NCBI GenBank assembly: GCA_022447665.1
Contig: JAKVAQ010000022.1
Location: 1-64,000, forward strand
Source: Crocinitomicaceae bacterium
Lineage (GTDB): Bacteria > Bacteroidota > Bacteroidia > Flavobacteriales_D > Crocinitomicaceae
Direction: 5' to 3'
Length of the DNA: 64,000 nt
Shown here: in pieces, positions 54,274 to 61,725 of the stretch
How positions within the stretch are numbered: position 1 is the stretch's first letter
Layout: each line of letters starts with the position of its first letter
Notes under the pieces: generated by a model
The model's input: only the letters and a program-made list of their open reading frames with translations
The model's database searches: none
Told to the model about the DNA's origin: nothing
Translations under genes and position numbers: made by a program

Positions 54274-54525
54274 CTATGCTTCTTCGATCTCGAATGTGTA
54301 CTGCTCCATAATTTGATTTACCAGGAGCTTTTTGCAAGCATCTTCAGTTTTAGCTATAGCCTCTTCTTTAGATCCTGCCTCAATGAATAAACGAATGTGC
54401 TTTCCAATTCTAACGTTAGAGATTTCAGGTAAACCTAAGTTCTCCATTGATTGACTAACTGCTTTTCCTTGAGGATCAAGAAGAGCATCTAAAGGCATTA
54501 CATCTATTTCAGCTTTGAATTTCAT
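54274..54525 (-). CDS. purS: Phosphoribosylformylglycinamidine synthase subunit PurS
   Basis: 83 residues, the full size of PurS: 'MKFKAEIDVMPLDALLDPQGKAVSQSMENLGLPEISNVRIGKHIRLFIEAGSKEEA' begins like the family (typical '...V.P...vlDPqG.Av...L..LG...v..vr.GK'). It links PurL and PurQ in the short-form FGAM synthase, matching the short PurL at 9335-11566. The 17 bp at its start overlap the pssA end. Confidence 0.92.
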   Translation of the reverse strand: MKFKAEIDVMPLDALLDPQGKAVSQSMENLGLPEISNVRIGKHIRLFIEAGSKEEAIAKTEDACKKLLVNQIMEQYTFEIEEA

Positions 54526-55288
54526 TTTTTTTCGGCTTTACTAAGAGCGACAAAACTACATATAAAATGATGATGAGAGGAAGTGCCCACCACAATAAAG
54601 TTATCAAAAGAATTAGCGAAATTGTTAAAAAGATATAGCGGATCTCATTCCCTTTCCATTTGAAATTTTTGATTTTCAAAGCAAATAACGGAAGCTCAAC
54701 GACCATTAATACAGAGAGTAAAATTGTTATAATTGATAAGCCATATGGGTTGAAAATAGTATTTTCTAAAATGGTCTTTTCGATAGAAGAGTGAGCGAAA
54801 TAAGGCAGAATTGGAAGTGAGGCAACAAATATTGTCATTGCTGGAGTAGGTAAACCAATAAAGGAATCATTTTGACGAGTATCCAAGTTAAATTTGGCTA
54901 ACCTAAAAAGAGCAAAAATTGGAATAATTAAACCTATTAATGGAAACAATGCGTAAACGTCAGTGTCTGTTCTTTCAATTGCATATAAAGTATATTCACT
55001 AGTTCTTTCGACAGTGTATTTACTTTGAGCAAGTTCATAAACAATTATCCCCGGGGCAACACCAAAAGTAACCATGTCTGCCAAAGAATCCAGTTGTTTG
55101 CCTAATTCCCCTTGAACCTTTAAAAGTCTTGCCACAAAGCCATCTAGAAAGTCTAAAATGGCAGATATAAAAATAAAGAAAGGCGCAAAAAATATATGAC
55201 CGTTCAAGGTGAAGATAATAGCCAGAATTCCACCCACCAAATTACCGGCTGTGAATAGATGTGGAATTAACTTTTTAATGGCCAACAT
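54509..55288 (-). CDS. pssA: CDP-diacylglycerol-serine O-phosphatidyltransferase
   Basis: Makes phosphatidylserine, the precursor of phosphatidylethanolamine. 259 residues from ATG 55288. It contains the full CDP-alcohol phosphatidyltransferase motif DGxxAR(x8)GxxxDxxxD, read as 'DGFVARLLKVQGELGKQLDS' followed by LAD, and about seven to eight membrane helices. Its last 17 bp overlap purS, so the two are likely transcribed together. Confidence 0.92.
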   Translation of the reverse strand: MLAIKKLIPHLFTAGNLVGGILAIIFTLNGHIFFAPFFIFISAILDFLDGFVARLLKVQGELGKQLDSLADMVTFGVAPGIIVYELAQSKYTVERTSEYTLYAIERTDTDVYALFPLIGLIIPIFALFRLAKFNLDTRQNDSFIGLPTPAMTIFVASLPILPYFAHSSIEKTILENTIFNPYGLSIITILLSVLMVVELPLFALKIKNFKWKGNEIRYIFLTISLILLITLLWWALPLIIILYVVLSLLVKPKKNEIQS

Positions 55289-55356
55289 GAGCACAAAATT
55301 GCCTAAAATATTTTGATCCGAATAATTTTTGCTTGAACAACCATCCTTATTCTATG

Positions 55357-55463: not shown

Positions 55464-56582
55464 ATGCGTTTTAAGCTCACATTTCTCCTCACACTTCTTA
55501 TCTCCCTGAATTCGATAGGGCAAGGTGATTTAGCTCCCAAATATTCCAATGAATTTTTATCCATTGGTGTAGGTGCGGCGGCTTTGGGTCAGTCCAATTC
55601 GGTTGTGGCAGGTGTGAATGATGTAACTGCGGGTTATTGGAACCCTGCAGGACTTACAGGGGTTACTGACTTTATGCAAATTGGTGCAATGCATGCTGAG
55701 TACTTCGCCGGAATAGCCAATTATGACTACATCGGGATAGCAAAGCCTATAGATGACATGAGCACTGCAGGTTTTTCATTTATCCGATTGGGAGTGGATG
55801 ATATTCCAAATACGACTCAACTTATTGATCCGGGCACGGGGGCAATCGATTACGATAACATTACACTTTTTTCAGTAGGAGATTACGCCTTTCTTTTCTC
55901 ATATGCTCGAAAAACTCCAATTGAAGGACTGAGTGTTGGAGGAAATTTTAAGGTAATTTATCGACATGTTGGAGATTTTGCGCGATCGTGGGGATTTGGA
56001 CTGGATGCGGCAGCACAATACCAACTTAACGATAAGTGGAGATTTGGTGCGGTTGTACGTGATGTGACCTCTACATTTAACGCTTGGTCTTATTCTTTGG
56101 ATGATCAAATAATTGAAACTTTCGAACAAACAGGAAATGAAATTCCTCAAAACGGATTGGAATTAACCTTGCCAAAAATCATATTGGGATCTCAATTTAA
56201 AACAAATATTGTCAAAGAGTTTTATGTGGCGACTGAATTAAATGTTGATCTGAATACTGATGGTAGACGTAACGTATTGATACGTACGGACCCAATTTCA
56301 ATAGATCCACACATGGGACTTGAACTAGGTTATGGTAAATGGGTAGCGCTCCGAGCGGGTATCGGGAATTTTACCTTCGTTAAAAATCCAGACTTAACCG
56401 AATCCTTGACTTTTCAACCAAATGTTGGAATTGGTGTAGGATTTAAAGGAATAAATATTGATTATGCATTTACAGATATTGGAGATGCTTCTGTTGCGCT
56501 TTATTCTCATATATTCTCTCTACGATTTAAACTAACCGACCCTCGAACAAAAGATGAGGGCGTTCCATCCCTCAATGAATAG
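55464..56582 (+). CDS. PorV/PorQ-family outer-membrane protein (PorV2-like, T9SS)
   Basis: 372 residues with a signal peptide (about 1-20, SIGQ). 'EFLSIGVGAAALGQSNSVVAGVNDVTAGYWNPAGLTGV' near the N-terminus is the PorV/FadL-like signature, and amphipathic strands run to 'SHIFSLRFKL'. PorV shuttles T9SS cargo to the PorU sortase on the cell surface. Here the 3' end overlaps the following C25 gene by 8 bp (ATGAATAG), which argues that they act together. I call it PorV2-like rather than the core PorV on this context and on its divergence; that split needs a profile search. Confidence 0.78.
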   Translation: MRFKLTFLLTLLISLNSIGQGDLAPKYSNEFLSIGVGAAALGQSNSVVAGVNDVTAGYWNPAGLTGVTDFMQIGAMHAEYFAGIANYDYIGIAKPIDDMSTAGFSFIRLGVDDIPNTTQLIDPGTGAIDYDNITLFSVGDYAFLFSYARKTPIEGLSVGGNFKVIYRHVGDFARSWGFGLDAAAQYQLNDKWRFGAVVRDVTSTFNAWSYSLDDQIIETFEQTGNEIPQNGLELTLPKIILGSQFKTNIVKEFYVATELNVDLNTDGRRNVLIRTDPISIDPHMGLELGYGKWVALRAGIGNFTFVKNPDLTESLTFQPNVGIGVGFKGINIDYAFTDIGDASVALYSHIFSLRFKLTDPRTKDEGVPSLNE

Positions 56583-59500
56583 AATTCTTGTAATTATATC
56601 GTTTTTATTATTGGGCATCTCTCACGCACAGCAAGGAAATGATTGGATTAATTACAGTCAGAATTACTATTCATTCAAGATTTACGAAGACGGAGTTTAC
56701 AAGATAGATTACGCCACTATGAGTGCAGCGGGTCTGCCTTTGTCGTCTCTTTCTCCTGATGATTTTCAGGTTTTTGGCTTCATGGAAGAGCAGGATATTT
56801 ATGTTGAAGATGGGGGAGATGGAACGTTCGACCCGGGTGATTATATCGTATTTGAAGCTCACAAAAACAACACTTGGCTGGACTCTTTGATGTACGATGA
56901 TCCTGATGACGTGCTCAATAAATACTATCCACTGTACAACGATACGATCAACTACTATTTAACTTGGAACACGGCTGGAGCAAATGAACGTATGGCTGAA
57001 TCAGCAGATATAAGCTTTGCATCGTATACGCCTCAACCTTACATCAGAAAAACGGTTTTTGTTGAAGAGCATGCAAGTTACCTCCAAGGTTATATTCAAA
57101 ATGGCATGTCTAATGCTACCTATGTTGATGGAGAGGGCTGGTCAAGTAACCGCATAAGTGCTACGGGAACGACAAATTACAAAGATCATAACTTAAACAC
57201 GCCAAATATATATACAGGGGCTGGCGCTGAACCTGCAAAGGTTGTAGCAAATGTTTGTGGAGCATCAAACGCTTCTTATGTAATAGGAGCAGGAGGAAAT
57301 CACCACGTTGAAGTTCAGTATGGTACTAGCTTAATTACAGCGGTTGATACGATTTATTCAGCTTATGAGCACAAAAAATTAGAATTTGAAATTCCTGTTT
57401 CTGACCTGGCTGGATCAGTCACGAGAATACGCTACCAGCTAGTCGCGGATCTTCCAGTAGCTTCAGATTTTCAATCTGTACCCTATACAGAAATTACCTA
57501 CTCAAGAAATTTAAACCTTTTAAGCACAAGCTATTTTGAAGGTACAGTTGCCTACAATTCTTCCGAGTCTAAAACAAGATTTGATTTTACCAATTTTACA
57601 TCCACAGCACCGTGGTGCTTAATCAGGGATGCGGAGGGTAATGTTATGAAGTGTCCTGTAATAAATTCTGCGGGAACCTTTCAAGTAATTGTACCCAATG
57701 CTGTATCGGGTACTTCTCAAAATCTCAAAATCTTTGATGAGAGTGAAATTCAAAGTGTTTCAACCCTCAGTCCAATTAATGGAACCGGTTCATTTACAGA
57801 CTACTCTTCTTACAATTTTGAAGAGGCTTATATCATCATTTCTCATAAAAATATATGGACTTCAGCAACAGAATATGCGACTTACAGACAAAGTGTAGCG
57901 GGAGGAAGTCATAATGTTGTGCTTTTAGATATAGATGAACTTTATCATCAATTTGGTGGAGGCGTTGAAAAACATGTTATGGGGATTCGATACTTGGTAA
58001 AGTTCGCTTATGAGACAGCGACATTAAAACCTAAGTATCTATTCTTGCTTGGAAAAGGGGTAAGGGAGTCGACCGAGAGTATTCCTACAGGAGGAGGTAC
58101 TCGTGTAGGAGGCTTGGCTTATAATATGTGCTTAATACCAACTTTCGGCTATCCGGCGAATGATGTTCTTATAACTAACAACCTTTCAGGTAATGAATGG
58201 GATCCCTTATTACCTACGGGAAGGCTAGCAGCATCAACTAACACAGAAGTTTTATTGTATTTAGATAAGGTTATTGAATTTGAAACAGAGCAAGATCCTT
58301 CAAGCATTTATTCCGTCGATGATAAACTTTGGCAAAAGCAAGTACTGCACTTTGGAGGTGGGGCGAATGCCACCGAGCAAAGTCAGTTTAAAAATTATTT
58401 AGAGAACTATGAGTCGATGATTGAGGGACCCGATTTCGGTGGTAATGTTACCGCATTTTATAAGACAGTGTCCGATCCTATCGACCCGGTTACCCTCTAC
58501 GAAGTGAATGATTACATCAATAGCGGTGTTTCAATAATGACCTTTTTTGGTCACGCTTCGGCAGATGGTTTTGACCAAAATGTTGATGATCCAGCGAATT
58601 GGGAAAATGAAGGTAAATATCCTTTGGTCATAGGAAATGCCTGTCTAACAGGTAATATTTTCGAGCCAAATAACCTAAGTACTTCAGAGGAGTTTGTAAT
58701 GATCGAAGACAAAGGAGCTATTGCATTTCTAGCCAATGTTAAGCAGGCATATTCGAGTTCGCTAAACGTATACTCTGAAAATTTGATGAGAGAAATTACG
58801 CAAAACTCTTATGGCGAATCTATAGGAGTGCAAATTCAACGAAATATTGATGCTCTTCAAAGTCCAATGATGTCATTTGGAAATTTCAATGTTATGATGC
58901 AAATGACGCTGCATGGTGATCCAGCATTGAAAATTAATCCACATGAGCGTCCGGAATTAGAAATTAATGAATCAAGTTTCTTTATAACACCTGATGTTGT
59001 TGATCTAACGGTGGATTCAATTGATGTGAATGTAGTTCTTTATAACCTGGGTAAATCTGCTACGGACACTTTTGGAATTGAAGTAAGAAGATTTTTTCCA
59101 AACGGCGGAGGTGACAGTTTATATACCAAGCAGATTTTTGGAATTGATTATATCGATACGATTGTCTTTACCATTCCATTTTATGCCAATGATGCAATAG
59201 GTATAAATGAATTTGAGGTACGCGTTGATCAACCAAGTTTTGTAGACGAACAATATGACGAGGTTGGTAATAATATGCTTTCAAGGCAAGTAATTTTTGA
59301 TGTGGATGGCATTTACCCGGTTTATCCTTACGAATACGCTATTGTTCCAAACGATACCATCACGCTCAAAGGTTCAACGGTAAACCCGTTTGCTGAGATA
59401 GCAACATATAGATTTGAAATAGATACTACAGATACCTTCGATAGTCCTGAGCATCGGTTTGCTCTAGTAACATCTCTTGGAGGAGTAATTGAGGTAGATT

Positions 59501-61725
59501 TTAATGATTGGATATTGTCGGGCTCTGGAACGCCAAGCGAGCTAATACTTGAGGATAGTGTTGCTTATTTTTGGAGAACAGCACTAGTTGGCGATGATTC
59601 TACCTATTATATTGAAAGTTCTTTTCAGCATATAAATGGAAGAACTGGATGGGGTCAAGATCATTTCTATCAATTTAAAAACAACCAGCATTCATTTTTG
59701 GATTATAATAGAATAGCTAGAAAAAGACTGTTTGGAGATTCATTTAAAACCATTAATTGTGATGTTTATGGAAATGCTAACACATGGCTTGAATTTGCAT
59801 TTACACTTATTCAAATTGATGGGGAGCTAGCAGAATATAACTTCTGTGGTACAAACCCTCAACTTTTTGTTGCAGTAATAGATCCATTTACTTTAGAACC
59901 TTGGGGTACTTATTATGACGATGGAACAACAATTCACAATCCTACTCATGATTTTGGGAATCAAAACAGTAATGGAGCATGTCGACCACGAGTTGAGTAT
60001 CATTTTGGCTTCGCTCAAAATAGCCCAACGCAAATGGCTTCATTCCAGAACATGGTTGAAAATGAAATTCCAGATAGCCATTACGTACTTATTTATACTT
60101 CTAGATATGCGAATTACACGGAATGGGATGCTGTTTATCCTGATGCATACACGGTCTTTGCAAATCTAGGATCAGATAGTATAGCACCTGGAAAGCCAGA
60201 CGTGCCGTTTATAGGATTCTATAAGCAAGGTAATCCAGATTCATATCATGAAGTATACGCCAACGACATTAATGATTTTATTCGATTAGAAGACACTTTA
60301 TGGGGCTTTGATTTCTTCGGTAATGAAAGATCAACAGTTATCGGTCCAGCACAGAGTTGGGATAAACTCTATTGGAAACAAGATCCTTTAGACGCTTCTG
60401 GCCAAGATTCCACTATTTTAAGAGTTTACGGACGCACCTATTCGGGCGCAGAAACTTTAGTAATGTCTCAACCTTTCACAGCTAATGATTCAATCATCAA
60501 TCTAGGTTCATATATTGATGTAAATACTTATCCAATGATCCGATTAGAGTCTGAATTGTGGGATACTATAGGGTTTTCGCCTGCTCAAGTTGATCGATGG
60601 CATGTTCTTTATACTCCTGTTCCTGAGGCGGCATTGGACGGATCAGCTGGAGTATTCTGGTTGCCAAGTGATACTTTGTATGAAGGACAAGAAATTGCAG
60701 TAGCCTTTGATGTAAGAAACATTAGTAACCTTCCTATGGACTCTCTTTTAATTAATTACTGGATTGAGGATGCCGAACATAACCTAATTCCAATTTCTTA
60801 TCCTCGTCAAGATTCTCTTAGAGTAGGCGAGACTATAAAAGATACCATTACTTTACCTACGGTATCATATGGAGGCTATAATAGTCTGTGGGTAGAGGTG
60901 AACCCTTATATTTCATCATCAATAAAAGACCAACCCGAGCAGTATCACTTTAATAATATTGGTCAAATACCTTTTTATACGATTGTAGATGAAGAAAATC
61001 CTATACTCGACGTTACTTTCAATGGACAGCATTTATTGAATGGTGATATAATAGATCCGCAGTCACAATTGGTAATCACTCTTAAAGATGAGAATCCTTA
61101 TTTAATTATGGATGCCATTACAGATACTGCAAATTTTGGCATCTATTTAACTGATCCGAATGGTACGCAAAGAAGATTGAATTTCCTTAATAATCTGGGC
61201 GAAGAGGAAATGCAGTGGATTCCAGCTAATCCAGGAAATTTAAAATTTCAAATAATTAAAGATTTTAATCTTATCCAGGATGGAACCTATAGACTACTAG
61301 TTCAAGGAGTAGACAGATCGGGAAACCTTTCTGGTGATTTAGATTACGAAATTGAATTCGAGATTGATCAAACGCCGAGTGTCACGCATTTAATGAATTA
61401 TCCAAATCCATTTAGCACAAGTACTCAATTTGTATTTACCCTTACAGGAACTCAAATACCAGATGAGTTTACCATCCAAATTCTTACAATTTCAGGAAAA
61501 ATTGTCCGTGAAATCACTGTTGATGAACTAGGCCCTATTCAAATAGGCCGTAATATAACAACCTTTGCTTGGGACGGAACAGATGAGTACGGAGATATAC
61601 TGGCAAATGGAGTATACTTATACCGTGTGATCACCAAAATAAACGGTGAAAGTCTAGAACATCGAGAATCTGGAGCAGACCAATACTTTACAAAAGAGTT
61701 TGGTAAGATGTATATCATTCGTTAG
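56575..61725 (+). CDS. Giant C25 (gingipain-type) peptidase, putative T9SS sortase PorU2-like
   Basis: 1716 residues from ATG 56575 (the longer frame adds seven codons inside the PorV-like gene). Signal peptide about 1-19 (SHAQ). A Peptidase C25 domain (about 415-790) shows a His-Cys dyad at H660 (FFGHAS) and C690 (GNACLTG), with 'YLFLLGKGVRES' and 'PANDVLITNN' before it. After it come several Ig-like beta-sandwich regions, then an ending with 'MNYPNPFSTSTQFVF' (about 1605 on), which is FlgD-Ig/T9SS-C-terminal-like. Classical PorU is shorter (about 1100-1300). Sortase or protease activity is inferred from the dyad and the PorV partner. Confidence 0.8.
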   Translation: MNRILVIISFLLLGISHAQQGNDWINYSQNYYSFKIYEDGVYKIDYATMSAAGLPLSSLSPDDFQVFGFMEEQDIYVEDGGDGTFDPGDYIVFEAHKNNTWLDSLMYDDPDDVLNKYYPLYNDTINYYLTWNTAGANERMAESADISFASYTPQPYIRKTVFVEEHASYLQGYIQNGMSNATYVDGEGWSSNRISATGTTNYKDHNLNTPNIYTGAGAEPAKVVANVCGASNASYVIGAGGNHHVEVQYGTSLITAVDTIYSAYEHKKLEFEIPVSDLAGSVTRIRYQLVADLPVASDFQSVPYTEITYSRNLNLLSTSYFEGTVAYNSSESKTRFDFTNFTSTAPWCLIRDAEGNVMKCPVINSAGTFQVIVPNAVSGTSQNLKIFDESEIQSVSTLSPINGTGSFTDYSSYNFEEAYIIISHKNIWTSATEYATYRQSVAGGSHNVVLLDIDELYHQFGGGVEKHVMGIRYLVKFAYETATLKPKYLFLLGKGVRESTESIPTGGGTRVGGLAYNMCLIPTFGYPANDVLITNNLSGNEWDPLLPTGRLAASTNTEVLLYLDKVIEFETEQDPSSIYSVDDKLWQKQVLHFGGGANATEQSQFKNYLENYESMIEGPDFGGNVTAFYKTVSDPIDPVTLYEVNDYINSGVSIMTFFGHASADGFDQNVDDPANWENEGKYPLVIGNACLTGNIFEPNNLSTSEEFVMIEDKGAIAFLANVKQAYSSSLNVYSENLMREITQNSYGESIGVQIQRNIDALQSPMMSFGNFNVMMQMTLHGDPALKINPHERPELEINESSFFITPDVVDLTVDSIDVNVVLYNLGKSATDTFGIEVRRFFPNGGGDSLYTKQIFGIDYIDTIVFTIPFYANDAIGINEFEVRVDQPSFVDEQYDEVGNNMLSRQVIFDVDGIYPVYPYEYAIVPNDTITLKGSTVNPFAEIATYRFEIDTTDTFDSPEHRFALVTSLGGVIEVDFNDWILSGSGTPSELILEDSVAYFWRTALVGDDSTYYIESSFQHINGRTGWGQDHFYQFKNNQHSFLDYNRIARKRLFGDSFKTINCDVYGNANTWLEFAFTLIQIDGELAEYNFCGTNPQLFVAVIDPFTLEPWGTYYDDGTTIHNPTHDFGNQNSNGACRPRVEYHFGFAQNSPTQMASFQNMVENEIPDSHYVLIYTSRYANYTEWDAVYPDAYTVFANLGSDSIAPGKPDVPFIGFYKQGNPDSYHEVYANDINDFIRLEDTLWGFDFFGNERSTVIGPAQSWDKLYWKQDPLDASGQDSTILRVYGRTYSGAETLVMSQPFTANDSIINLGSYIDVNTYPMIRLESELWDTIGFSPAQVDRWHVLYTPVPEAALDGSAGVFWLPSDTLYEGQEIAVAFDVRNISNLPMDSLLINYWIEDAEHNLIPISYPRQDSLRVGETIKDTITLPTVSYGGYNSLWVEVNPYISSSIKDQPEQYHFNNIGQIPFYTIVDEENPILDVTFNGQHLLNGDIIDPQSQLVITLKDENPYLIMDAITDTANFGIYLTDPNGTQRRLNFLNNLGEEEMQWIPANPGNLKFQIIKDFNLIQDGTYRLLVQGVDRSGNLSGDLDYEIEFEIDQTPSVTHLMNYPNPFSTSTQFVFTLTGTQIPDEFTIQILTISGKIVREITVDELGPIQIGRNITTFAWDGTDEYGDILANGVYLYRVITKINGESLEHRESGADQYFTKEFGKMYIIR

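Follow-up and report, generated by a model that had tools for sequence, protein, structure and literature searches.

A second PorV-PorU-like gene pair in a Crocinitomicaceae genome: a putative type IX sortase with distinct active-site surroundings

Introduction

Many proteins of Bacteroidota leave the cell by way of the type IX system, with subsets of them released or anchored. In excerpts of two papers, PorU and PorZ are described as retaining their tails (PMC11285876) and as binding PorV and PorQ, with PorV shuttling cargo to PorU (PMC5562754); an excerpt of a review suggests that cognate PorV-like barrels shield such tails (PMC10202324). NCBIfam, whose models (release of June 2026) and curated cut-offs are used here for family naming, holds two further families, NF052324 ("putative type IX secretion system sortase PorU2") and NF052325 ("putative type IX sorting system protein PorV2"). 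These families are catalogued by annotators but unstudied: the literature searched, outside which most subscription journals lie, contained no paper that mentions PorU2 and no study of PorV2 or of a PorU-like or paralogous PorU pair. An apparent mention of PorV2 in PMC10994853 was discarded, as no such protein occurs in the portion of text available; "PorV" followed by the reference mark 23 is the likely cause.

Here we analyze a porV2-porU2 pair in the first 64,000 nucleotides of contig JAKVAQ010000022.1 (assembly GCA_022447665.1, forward strand) of a Crocinitomicaceae bacterium, a stretch called the window below. Our preferred reading, to which we assign a probability of roughly 0.6, is that the pair arose long ago as a paralogue of the genes for type IX attachment and specifies a tail-docked surface cysteine peptidase or sortase with a specificity of its own.

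Results

Judged by sequence, the two genes are not a product of chance, because both score above the curated cut-offs of their families (Table 1). The core PorU model NF033707 gives PorU2 221.8 bits, below its cut-off of 420; PorV2 has no match at E≤0.01 to the core PorV model NF033710 (cut-off 250) and reaches 45.6 bits on the PorQ model NF033711 against a cut-off of 220. A preliminary description of the window had reported a PorV-like gene overlapping by 8 base pairs (bp) a 1716-residue C25 peptidase gene with an intact H660/C690 dyad; coordinates and families proved correct, and the dyad lies exactly as numbered inside Pfam Peptidase_C25. That description had also proposed a second pair of the PorV2/PorU2 type, and a search of the whole genome (4.06 Mb in 84 contigs, 99.98% complete) bore this out. 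Among its three C25 genes is that of the core PorU (1279 residues, 1235 bits on NF033707), directly followed by core PorV (NF033710, 418.7 bits) on another contig than PorU2; the PorQ gene is on a further contig, and the third C25 gene encodes a 745-residue cargo protein with a type A tail. As core porU and porV sit elsewhere in the genome, PorV2-PorU2 is a true second pair coexisting with the core set. PorU2 exceeds the genome's own PorU by 437 residues, in keeping with the earlier remark that PorU is several hundred residues shorter. Its 1716 residues are counted from the ATG at 56575 (an alternative upstream ATG at 56554 would give 1723), and lengths of about 1.66-1.77 thousand residues are typical of the family in the order. 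The match to NF052324 spans residues 6-899; the model reaches only the first ~880 residues, leaving insert and tail outside it.

Conservation of the active site was followed in an alignment of 87 C25 proteins: 99 hits, less 14 rows (four copies of the window PorU2, two of the genome's own PorU, four frame-split pieces from loci L034 and L035 and four repeats from genomes already represented), plus the window PorU2 and the C25 cargo protein. No loss of the dyad among orthologs came to light, both residues being kept in all 69 other PorU2 proteins as well as in 16/16 PorU and in the cargo protein. The surroundings differ. In the numbering of the genome's own PorU, residues D573, D720, L784, G792, E800, T824, D831 and R858 are present in 16/16 PorU and F827 in 15/16, whereas each of these markers around the active site occurs in at most 10% of the 70 PorU2. 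Around the dyad PorU shows, almost without exception, GHG...E and TCxFxxxD; PorU2 mostly has FGH[AS] before and GN-F-like residues after the cysteine. From the catalytic cysteine onward the sequence reads CLTGN in the window PorU2, CNNGS in the 745-residue cargo protein and CEFSR in PorU. The altered surroundings may reflect a different substrate or acceptor preference. The catalytic cysteine of Porphyromonas gingivalis PorU is also numbered C690 in the excerpt of PMC5562754, a coincidence in our opinion. The comparison with PorU by phylogeny that the preliminary description had suggested, made with 65 of the 87 rows by a quick method without bootstrap, placed 16 PorU rows in one clade (Shimodaira-Hasegawa-like approximate likelihood ratio 100) and 43 PorU2 rows in another (98); five PorU2-like rows from other classes (L132-L135 and L155) took an uncertain place beside PorU and blur the two clades.

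The last 112 residues of PorU2 (1605-1716) are the most conserved stretch measured, with a mean pairwise identity of 0.51 as against 0.37 for the C25 domain (30 sequences). In a matched class set of nine PorU2 and nine PorU the values for tail and C25 domain were 0.43 and 0.34 in PorU2, and 0.39 for both in PorU. The tail of the genome's core PorU scores 25.4 bits on the type A model TIGR04183. PorV2 yielded a predicted model (predicted local distance difference test, pLDDT, 87.7), whose best Protein Data Bank (PDB) matches are PorV 8gl6_F (E 2.9e-13) and 6h3i_F, and then FadL. By analogy with the core components, the tail of PorU2 would be expected to dock into PorV2.

The two genes do not always travel together. 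Within a sample of 150 genomes of the order, PorU2 scores over cut-off in 92 and PorV2 in 121; all 92 carry PorV2, in G023 and G025 only as a sub-cut-off fragment. For gene-content classes, the 121 of the 150 genomes that are at least 90% complete were typed by hand and five with fragmentary calls were left out, giving 116: 72 with both genes, 24 with PorV2 only and 20 with neither. At all seven loci viewed in family f1 (L066-L070, L083, L084) the place between PorV2 and the gene for a 410-residue protein is empty, and in f17 PorV2 lies beside pssA without PorU2. Across a phylum sample of 395 genomes, 33 have PorU2 over cut-off, 68 have PorV2 and 257 have core PorU; 25 genomes have both PorU2 and PorV2, 8 PorU2 alone and 43 PorV2 alone. 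From this phylum-wide scatter, together and alone, it follows that the pair is old and that its halves can be lost separately. Sub-cut-off proteins that resemble PorU2, 1.6-2.0 thousand residues long, also occur in other classes. PorU2 is duplicated at one locus each in L131 and L125, and also in G273, G337 and G396; three copies examined from f21 fall below the usual length, at 1080-1345 residues.

Both genes are under strong constraint. Ratios of nonsynonymous to synonymous substitution (dN/dS), which are rough as several dS values exceed 1, were 0.055-0.072 in four PorU2 pairs, 0.023-0.036 in four pairs of PorV2 from genomes without PorU2 (two further pairs being saturated) and 0.035 in one PorV2 pair in the presence of PorU2. 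The constraint on PorV2 persists where PorU2 is missing, so PorV2 has its own task.

The extra length of PorU2 could be placed with profiles; the single sequence gave no PDB match at E 0.01. A profile of the first 900 residues matches P. gingivalis PorU (6za2) at 258-788, and a second profile, built on the last 922 residues, matches it with its end at 930-1147 (E 1.3e-9). As both ends match PorU, some 600 extra residues are inserted before the terminal immunoglobulin-like (Ig) domain and tail. In a predicted model of residues 795-1716 (pLDDT 87.8, predicted template modelling score 0.60), a CARDB-like domain resembles 3idu_B (Z 12.9, root mean square deviation 2.7 over 110 aligned residues) and the terminal region resembles 6za2 (Z 10.5, deviation 11.5 over 194 residues). 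The top Foldseek rows in the Foldseek/VIA comparison of this model were chance Ig-chain matches (deviation 28-78), and only the CARDB and PorU rows were used; FAM3 was not among the rows, which does not exclude its presence.

The insert also contains, at residues ~1034-1226, a domain that is in part alpha/beta. The Pfam model ILEI (PF15711) recognizes C-terminal segments of 9/34 family members at E≤1 (best 2e-7) and the isolated region of 14/30 at E≤10 (best 1.7e-8); its cut-off of 27 is passed at the same aligned place by two orthologue copies in L131 (31.9 and 27.7), and the signal is absent from 7/7 core PorU scanned. Against all PDB sequences, a 30-member profile returned five hits up to E 10, all of them POMGnT1 or FAM3 chains. 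We regard the likeness of the insert to the FAM3/ILEI family, as read from these profiles, as fair. According to an excerpt of PMC9802357, the POMGnT1 stem and FAM3C bind N-acetylglucosamine (GlcNAc); sugar binding by the PorU2 insert would be a guess.

The preliminary description had placed the pair next to potential cargo and imagined it serving particular substrates. Downstream of PorU2 (window 62254 to its end, continuing in L011:9226-17851) there are indeed two type B tail proteins, of 1357 and 1072 residues. Behind each lies a small protein (154 and 178 residues) with an FCDKC motif; in the relative L156 a homologue of the small protein comes directly after PorU2, without any type B cargo. 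This adjacency did not hold up elsewhere: among 38 PorU2 loci (1.6-11 kb downstream), only the window locus showed a same-strand type B tail, by an insensitive profile built on the two proteins of this genome. Six relatives, viewed up to 7.8 kb downstream, had no homologue of either cargo gene. Every one of the 150 genomes in the order sample has type B tails, whether it carries PorU2 or not. The neighbouring type B cargo is particular to this genome, and the cargo link does not generalise. The genome itself has at least 150 type A matches and 47 type B matches, 40 of the latter over cut-off.

GCX_COOH (NF045639) was considered as the tail of PorU2 cargo, since 24 of the 26 matching genomes among the 150 have PorU2 over cut-off and one more has a PorU2 fragment. 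It was rejected: the 23 hits examined as proteins (L096-L115) lie in a repeat-like stretch before a C-terminus that in most of them resembles a normal type A tail, so the association with PorU2 says little, and the window genome has none. The stretch has a pattern like GFxAxxGSxFxAxI, and genome-scan hits are not to be read as a C-terminal GCx signal. Densities of type A and type B tails in the 116 classed genomes are loose first-look candidate counts, uncorrected for kinship, and do not enter our best reading; in f9 they do not differ with the presence of PorU2 (p 0.34), and genomes lacking both genes have 29 type A tails per Mb as against 43-49 (p 1e-5), a difference that may stem from one lineage.

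A contig scan gave 20 loci, nearly all labelled Crocinitomicaceae or other Flavobacteriales and one labelled Chitinophaga. With the window included, PorV2 is upstream of PorU2 at 19/21 loci, the stretches of the remaining two (L030 and L033) starting inside PorU2. Between the stop of PorV2 and the first ATG of PorU2 (56575 in the window) the spacing is -8 to +5 bp at 13/17 loci and -53, -50, +34 and +161 bp at the other four, L034 and L035 being left out for their split frames; the 8-bp overlap is not a conserved signature. Conservation of the neighbourhood lies upstream, with a pssA-like gene (Table 1) at 15/21 loci and, also at 15/21, a gene that from its sequence we take to be purS-like. 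The usual downstream gene, at 12/21 loci, encodes the 410-residue protein on the opposite strand.

Further PorV-family genes were seen in this genome. A barrel encoded on contig C16 (L014:4257-5333) scores 138.9 bits on NF033709, lies under the PorV and PorQ cut-offs and has no PorV2 match; beside it (L014:5358-8936) is a protein of at least 1192 residues whose end weakly matches PorZ (23.2 bits), and the two are possibly another pair of barrel and tailed protein. On C2 (L015:3355-4182) a PorV-family gene with 80.9 bits, under the family cut-off, adjoins the gene of a 692-residue protein.

Table 1. Features of the porV2-porU2 locus in window coordinates
Feature	Position	Strand	Basis
porV2, 372-residue outer-membrane beta-barrel, PorV/PorQ family	55464..56582	+	NF052325 486.6 bits, cut-off 325
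porU2, 1716-residue secreted peptidase of family C25, putative second type IX sortase	56575..61725	+	NF052324 725.9 bits, cut-off 450
8-bp overlap ATGAATAG, porV2 stop with porU2 start	56575..56582	+	Read from sequence
Probable signal peptide of PorU2, MNRILVIISFLLLGISHA	56575..56628	+	Judged by eye from sequence
C25 peptidase domain, residues 419-786	57829..58932	+	PF01364 (Peptidase_C25) 178.7 bits
Catalytic His660	58552..58554	+	H in 69/69 other PorU2
Catalytic Cys690	58642..58644	+	C in 69/69 other PorU2
FAM3/ILEI-like domain in PorU2-specific insert, residues ~1034-1226 (best supported ~1139-1213)	59674..60252	+	Family-profile signal
CARDB-like Ig domain, residues ~1345-1472	60607..60990	+	Predicted model vs 3idu_B
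Terminal Ig and C-terminal domain as in PorU, residues ~1473-1716	60991..61722	+	Profile and structure match to 6za2
pssA-like gene, conserved divergent neighbour (context)	54509..55294	-	TIGR00473 113.8 bits

Discussion

We propose that PorU2 would be docked at the surface by its retained tail, where Cys690 and His660 would cleave, and perhaps transpeptidate, cargo tails other than those handled by core PorU; a separate cargo set is suggested because the active-site surroundings differ. More speculatively, the FAM3/ILEI-like domain of the insert might bind a glycan, perhaps the attachment acceptor, a service for which PorU relies on the separate PorZ. Taken to its limit, this would make PorU2 a self-sufficient surface sortase that unites the roles of PorU and PorZ in one chain, its own insert presenting the acceptor sugar, and that forms with PorV2 a second attachment route, common to several classes, capable of taking over from core PorU in some lineages and acting on a cargo class not yet separated from type A; this extended version strikes us as quite doubtful.

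Several observations weigh against a tail-docked second sortase of this kind. The PorU2 tail scores 21.3 bits on TIGR04183, short of the cut-off of 23, and its end reaches 25.3 on the FlgD_ig model (sub-threshold, cut-off 27). As 8/33 PorU2 genomes of the phylum sample have no PorV2 over cut-off, PorV2 cannot always be the dock; six of the eight show no PorV2 match better than E 1e-8, and G226 and G384 show a sub-cut-off one. In f9 the two genes are separate in 5/5 genomes viewed. The density of type A tails in f1 does not differ with the presence of PorU2 (p 0.45). As to the insert, the window PorU2 itself has no match to PF15711, the POMGnT1 and FAM3 matches in the PDB are weak (E 0.12-1.6), and two of the three reported sugar-contact residues of POMGnT1 (Asp179 and Arg207) fall, on our reading of the alignment, on Tyr1178 and Asp1209 of PorU2.

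The strongest competitor gives PorV2 the leading part, as a second barrel that shuttles or anchors some class of tails, with PorU2 as a dispensable client. It draws on the 24 classed genomes that keep PorV2 alone, on the syntenic places emptied of porU2 in f1 and f17, on a constraint on PorV2 that is as strong without PorU2 as in the one pair with it, and on the poverty in type A tails of f9 genomes without both genes. We hold it to be a real possibility, if somewhat short of an even chance, and it is partly compatible with the docked-sortase reading; PorU2 in genomes without over-cut-off PorV2 argues that PorU2 is not merely a client. The same separations qualify the preliminary description's notion of a dedicated pair: the second pair is real, and the exclusiveness of the pairing is weakened, with PorV2 often occurring without PorU2 and PorU2 sometimes without PorV2. 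Dedication to the neighboring type B cargo, suggested by the two downstream proteins, is highly improbable, given that the adjacency was seen in this genome only, that type B tails are found throughout the order sample whether PorU2 is present or not, and that type B export is stated in an excerpt of PMC10202324 to depend on PorP/SprF and not on PorV.

PorU2 might instead be an ordinary gingipain-like surface protease that keeps its tail, digests extracellular protein and sorts nothing. Secreted proteases have the C25 fold too, the A3 profile matches gingipain R (1cvr, E 1.8e-9) besides PorU (6za2, E 1.8e-16), and the residues after the cysteine are nearer to those of the C25 cargo protein than to those of PorU. 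Its N-terminal half, terminal Ig domain and tail nevertheless follow PorU, it is paired with a PorV-type barrel across the order, and no part of it is better conserved than the tail, in contrast to tails that are removed; such a protease seems rather unlikely to us. Somewhat in the same range of improbability is the idea that PorU2 replaces core PorU as the only sortase in some lineages. It stems from four f15 genomes (G156, G238, G273 and G416) that have PorU2 and PorV2 over cut-off and match the core PorU model only weakly (E 1e-22 to 1e-39), the pair in G416 lying on a contig of 3.34 Mb; against it, only two candidates were scored in each genome. Sampling of tails proved uninformative on this point: a home-made profile found no type A tail in 400-kb samples from G416 and from G156, and a sample of equal size from the PorU-bearing control G439 likewise gave none at a C-terminus except its own PorU.

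Within the literature searched, the separability of porV2 and porU2, the lack in PorU2 of the residues that mark the PorU active site and the FAM3/ILEI-like domain in the ~600-residue insert all appear to be new. If the docked-sortase reading is right, a phylum-wide second sortase pair whose active-site surroundings differ would account for part of type IX sorting, and a bacterial sortase with a FAM3-like module would offer a biochemical handle on the acceptor. The natural losses, with PorV2 alone, PorU2 alone or PorU absent, make the question testable among close relatives.

Set beside known systems, the window pair belongs to the families NF052324 and NF052325, with both proteins far above the cut-offs, and our tests showed no difference from them. 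With the core barrels PorV and PorQ (NF033710, NF033711), PorV2 has in common the FadL-type barrel, PorV being its best structural match; it differs in lacking an NF033710 match and in falling far below the PorQ cut-off. With core PorU (NF033707; 6za2), PorU2 shares the N-terminal region, the C25 domain with its Cys/His dyad, the terminal Ig domain and the tail, but it falls under the PorU cut-off, lacks the PorU active-site residues and carries the additional CARDB-like and FAM3/ILEI-like insert. The FAM3/ILEI domain of the POMGnT1 stem, FAM3B and FAM3C resembles the insert in profile and Pfam comparisons; the likeness is weak, however, two of the three GlcNAc contact residues are not kept in PorU2 and the window member has no match. 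PorZ, carrier of anionic lipopolysaccharide for PorU, might share with the insert the task of delivering a glycan to the sortase, but PorZ consists of beta-propellers, as an excerpt of PMC8545088 has it, whereas in PorU2 the candidate is a FAM3-like domain within the same chain.

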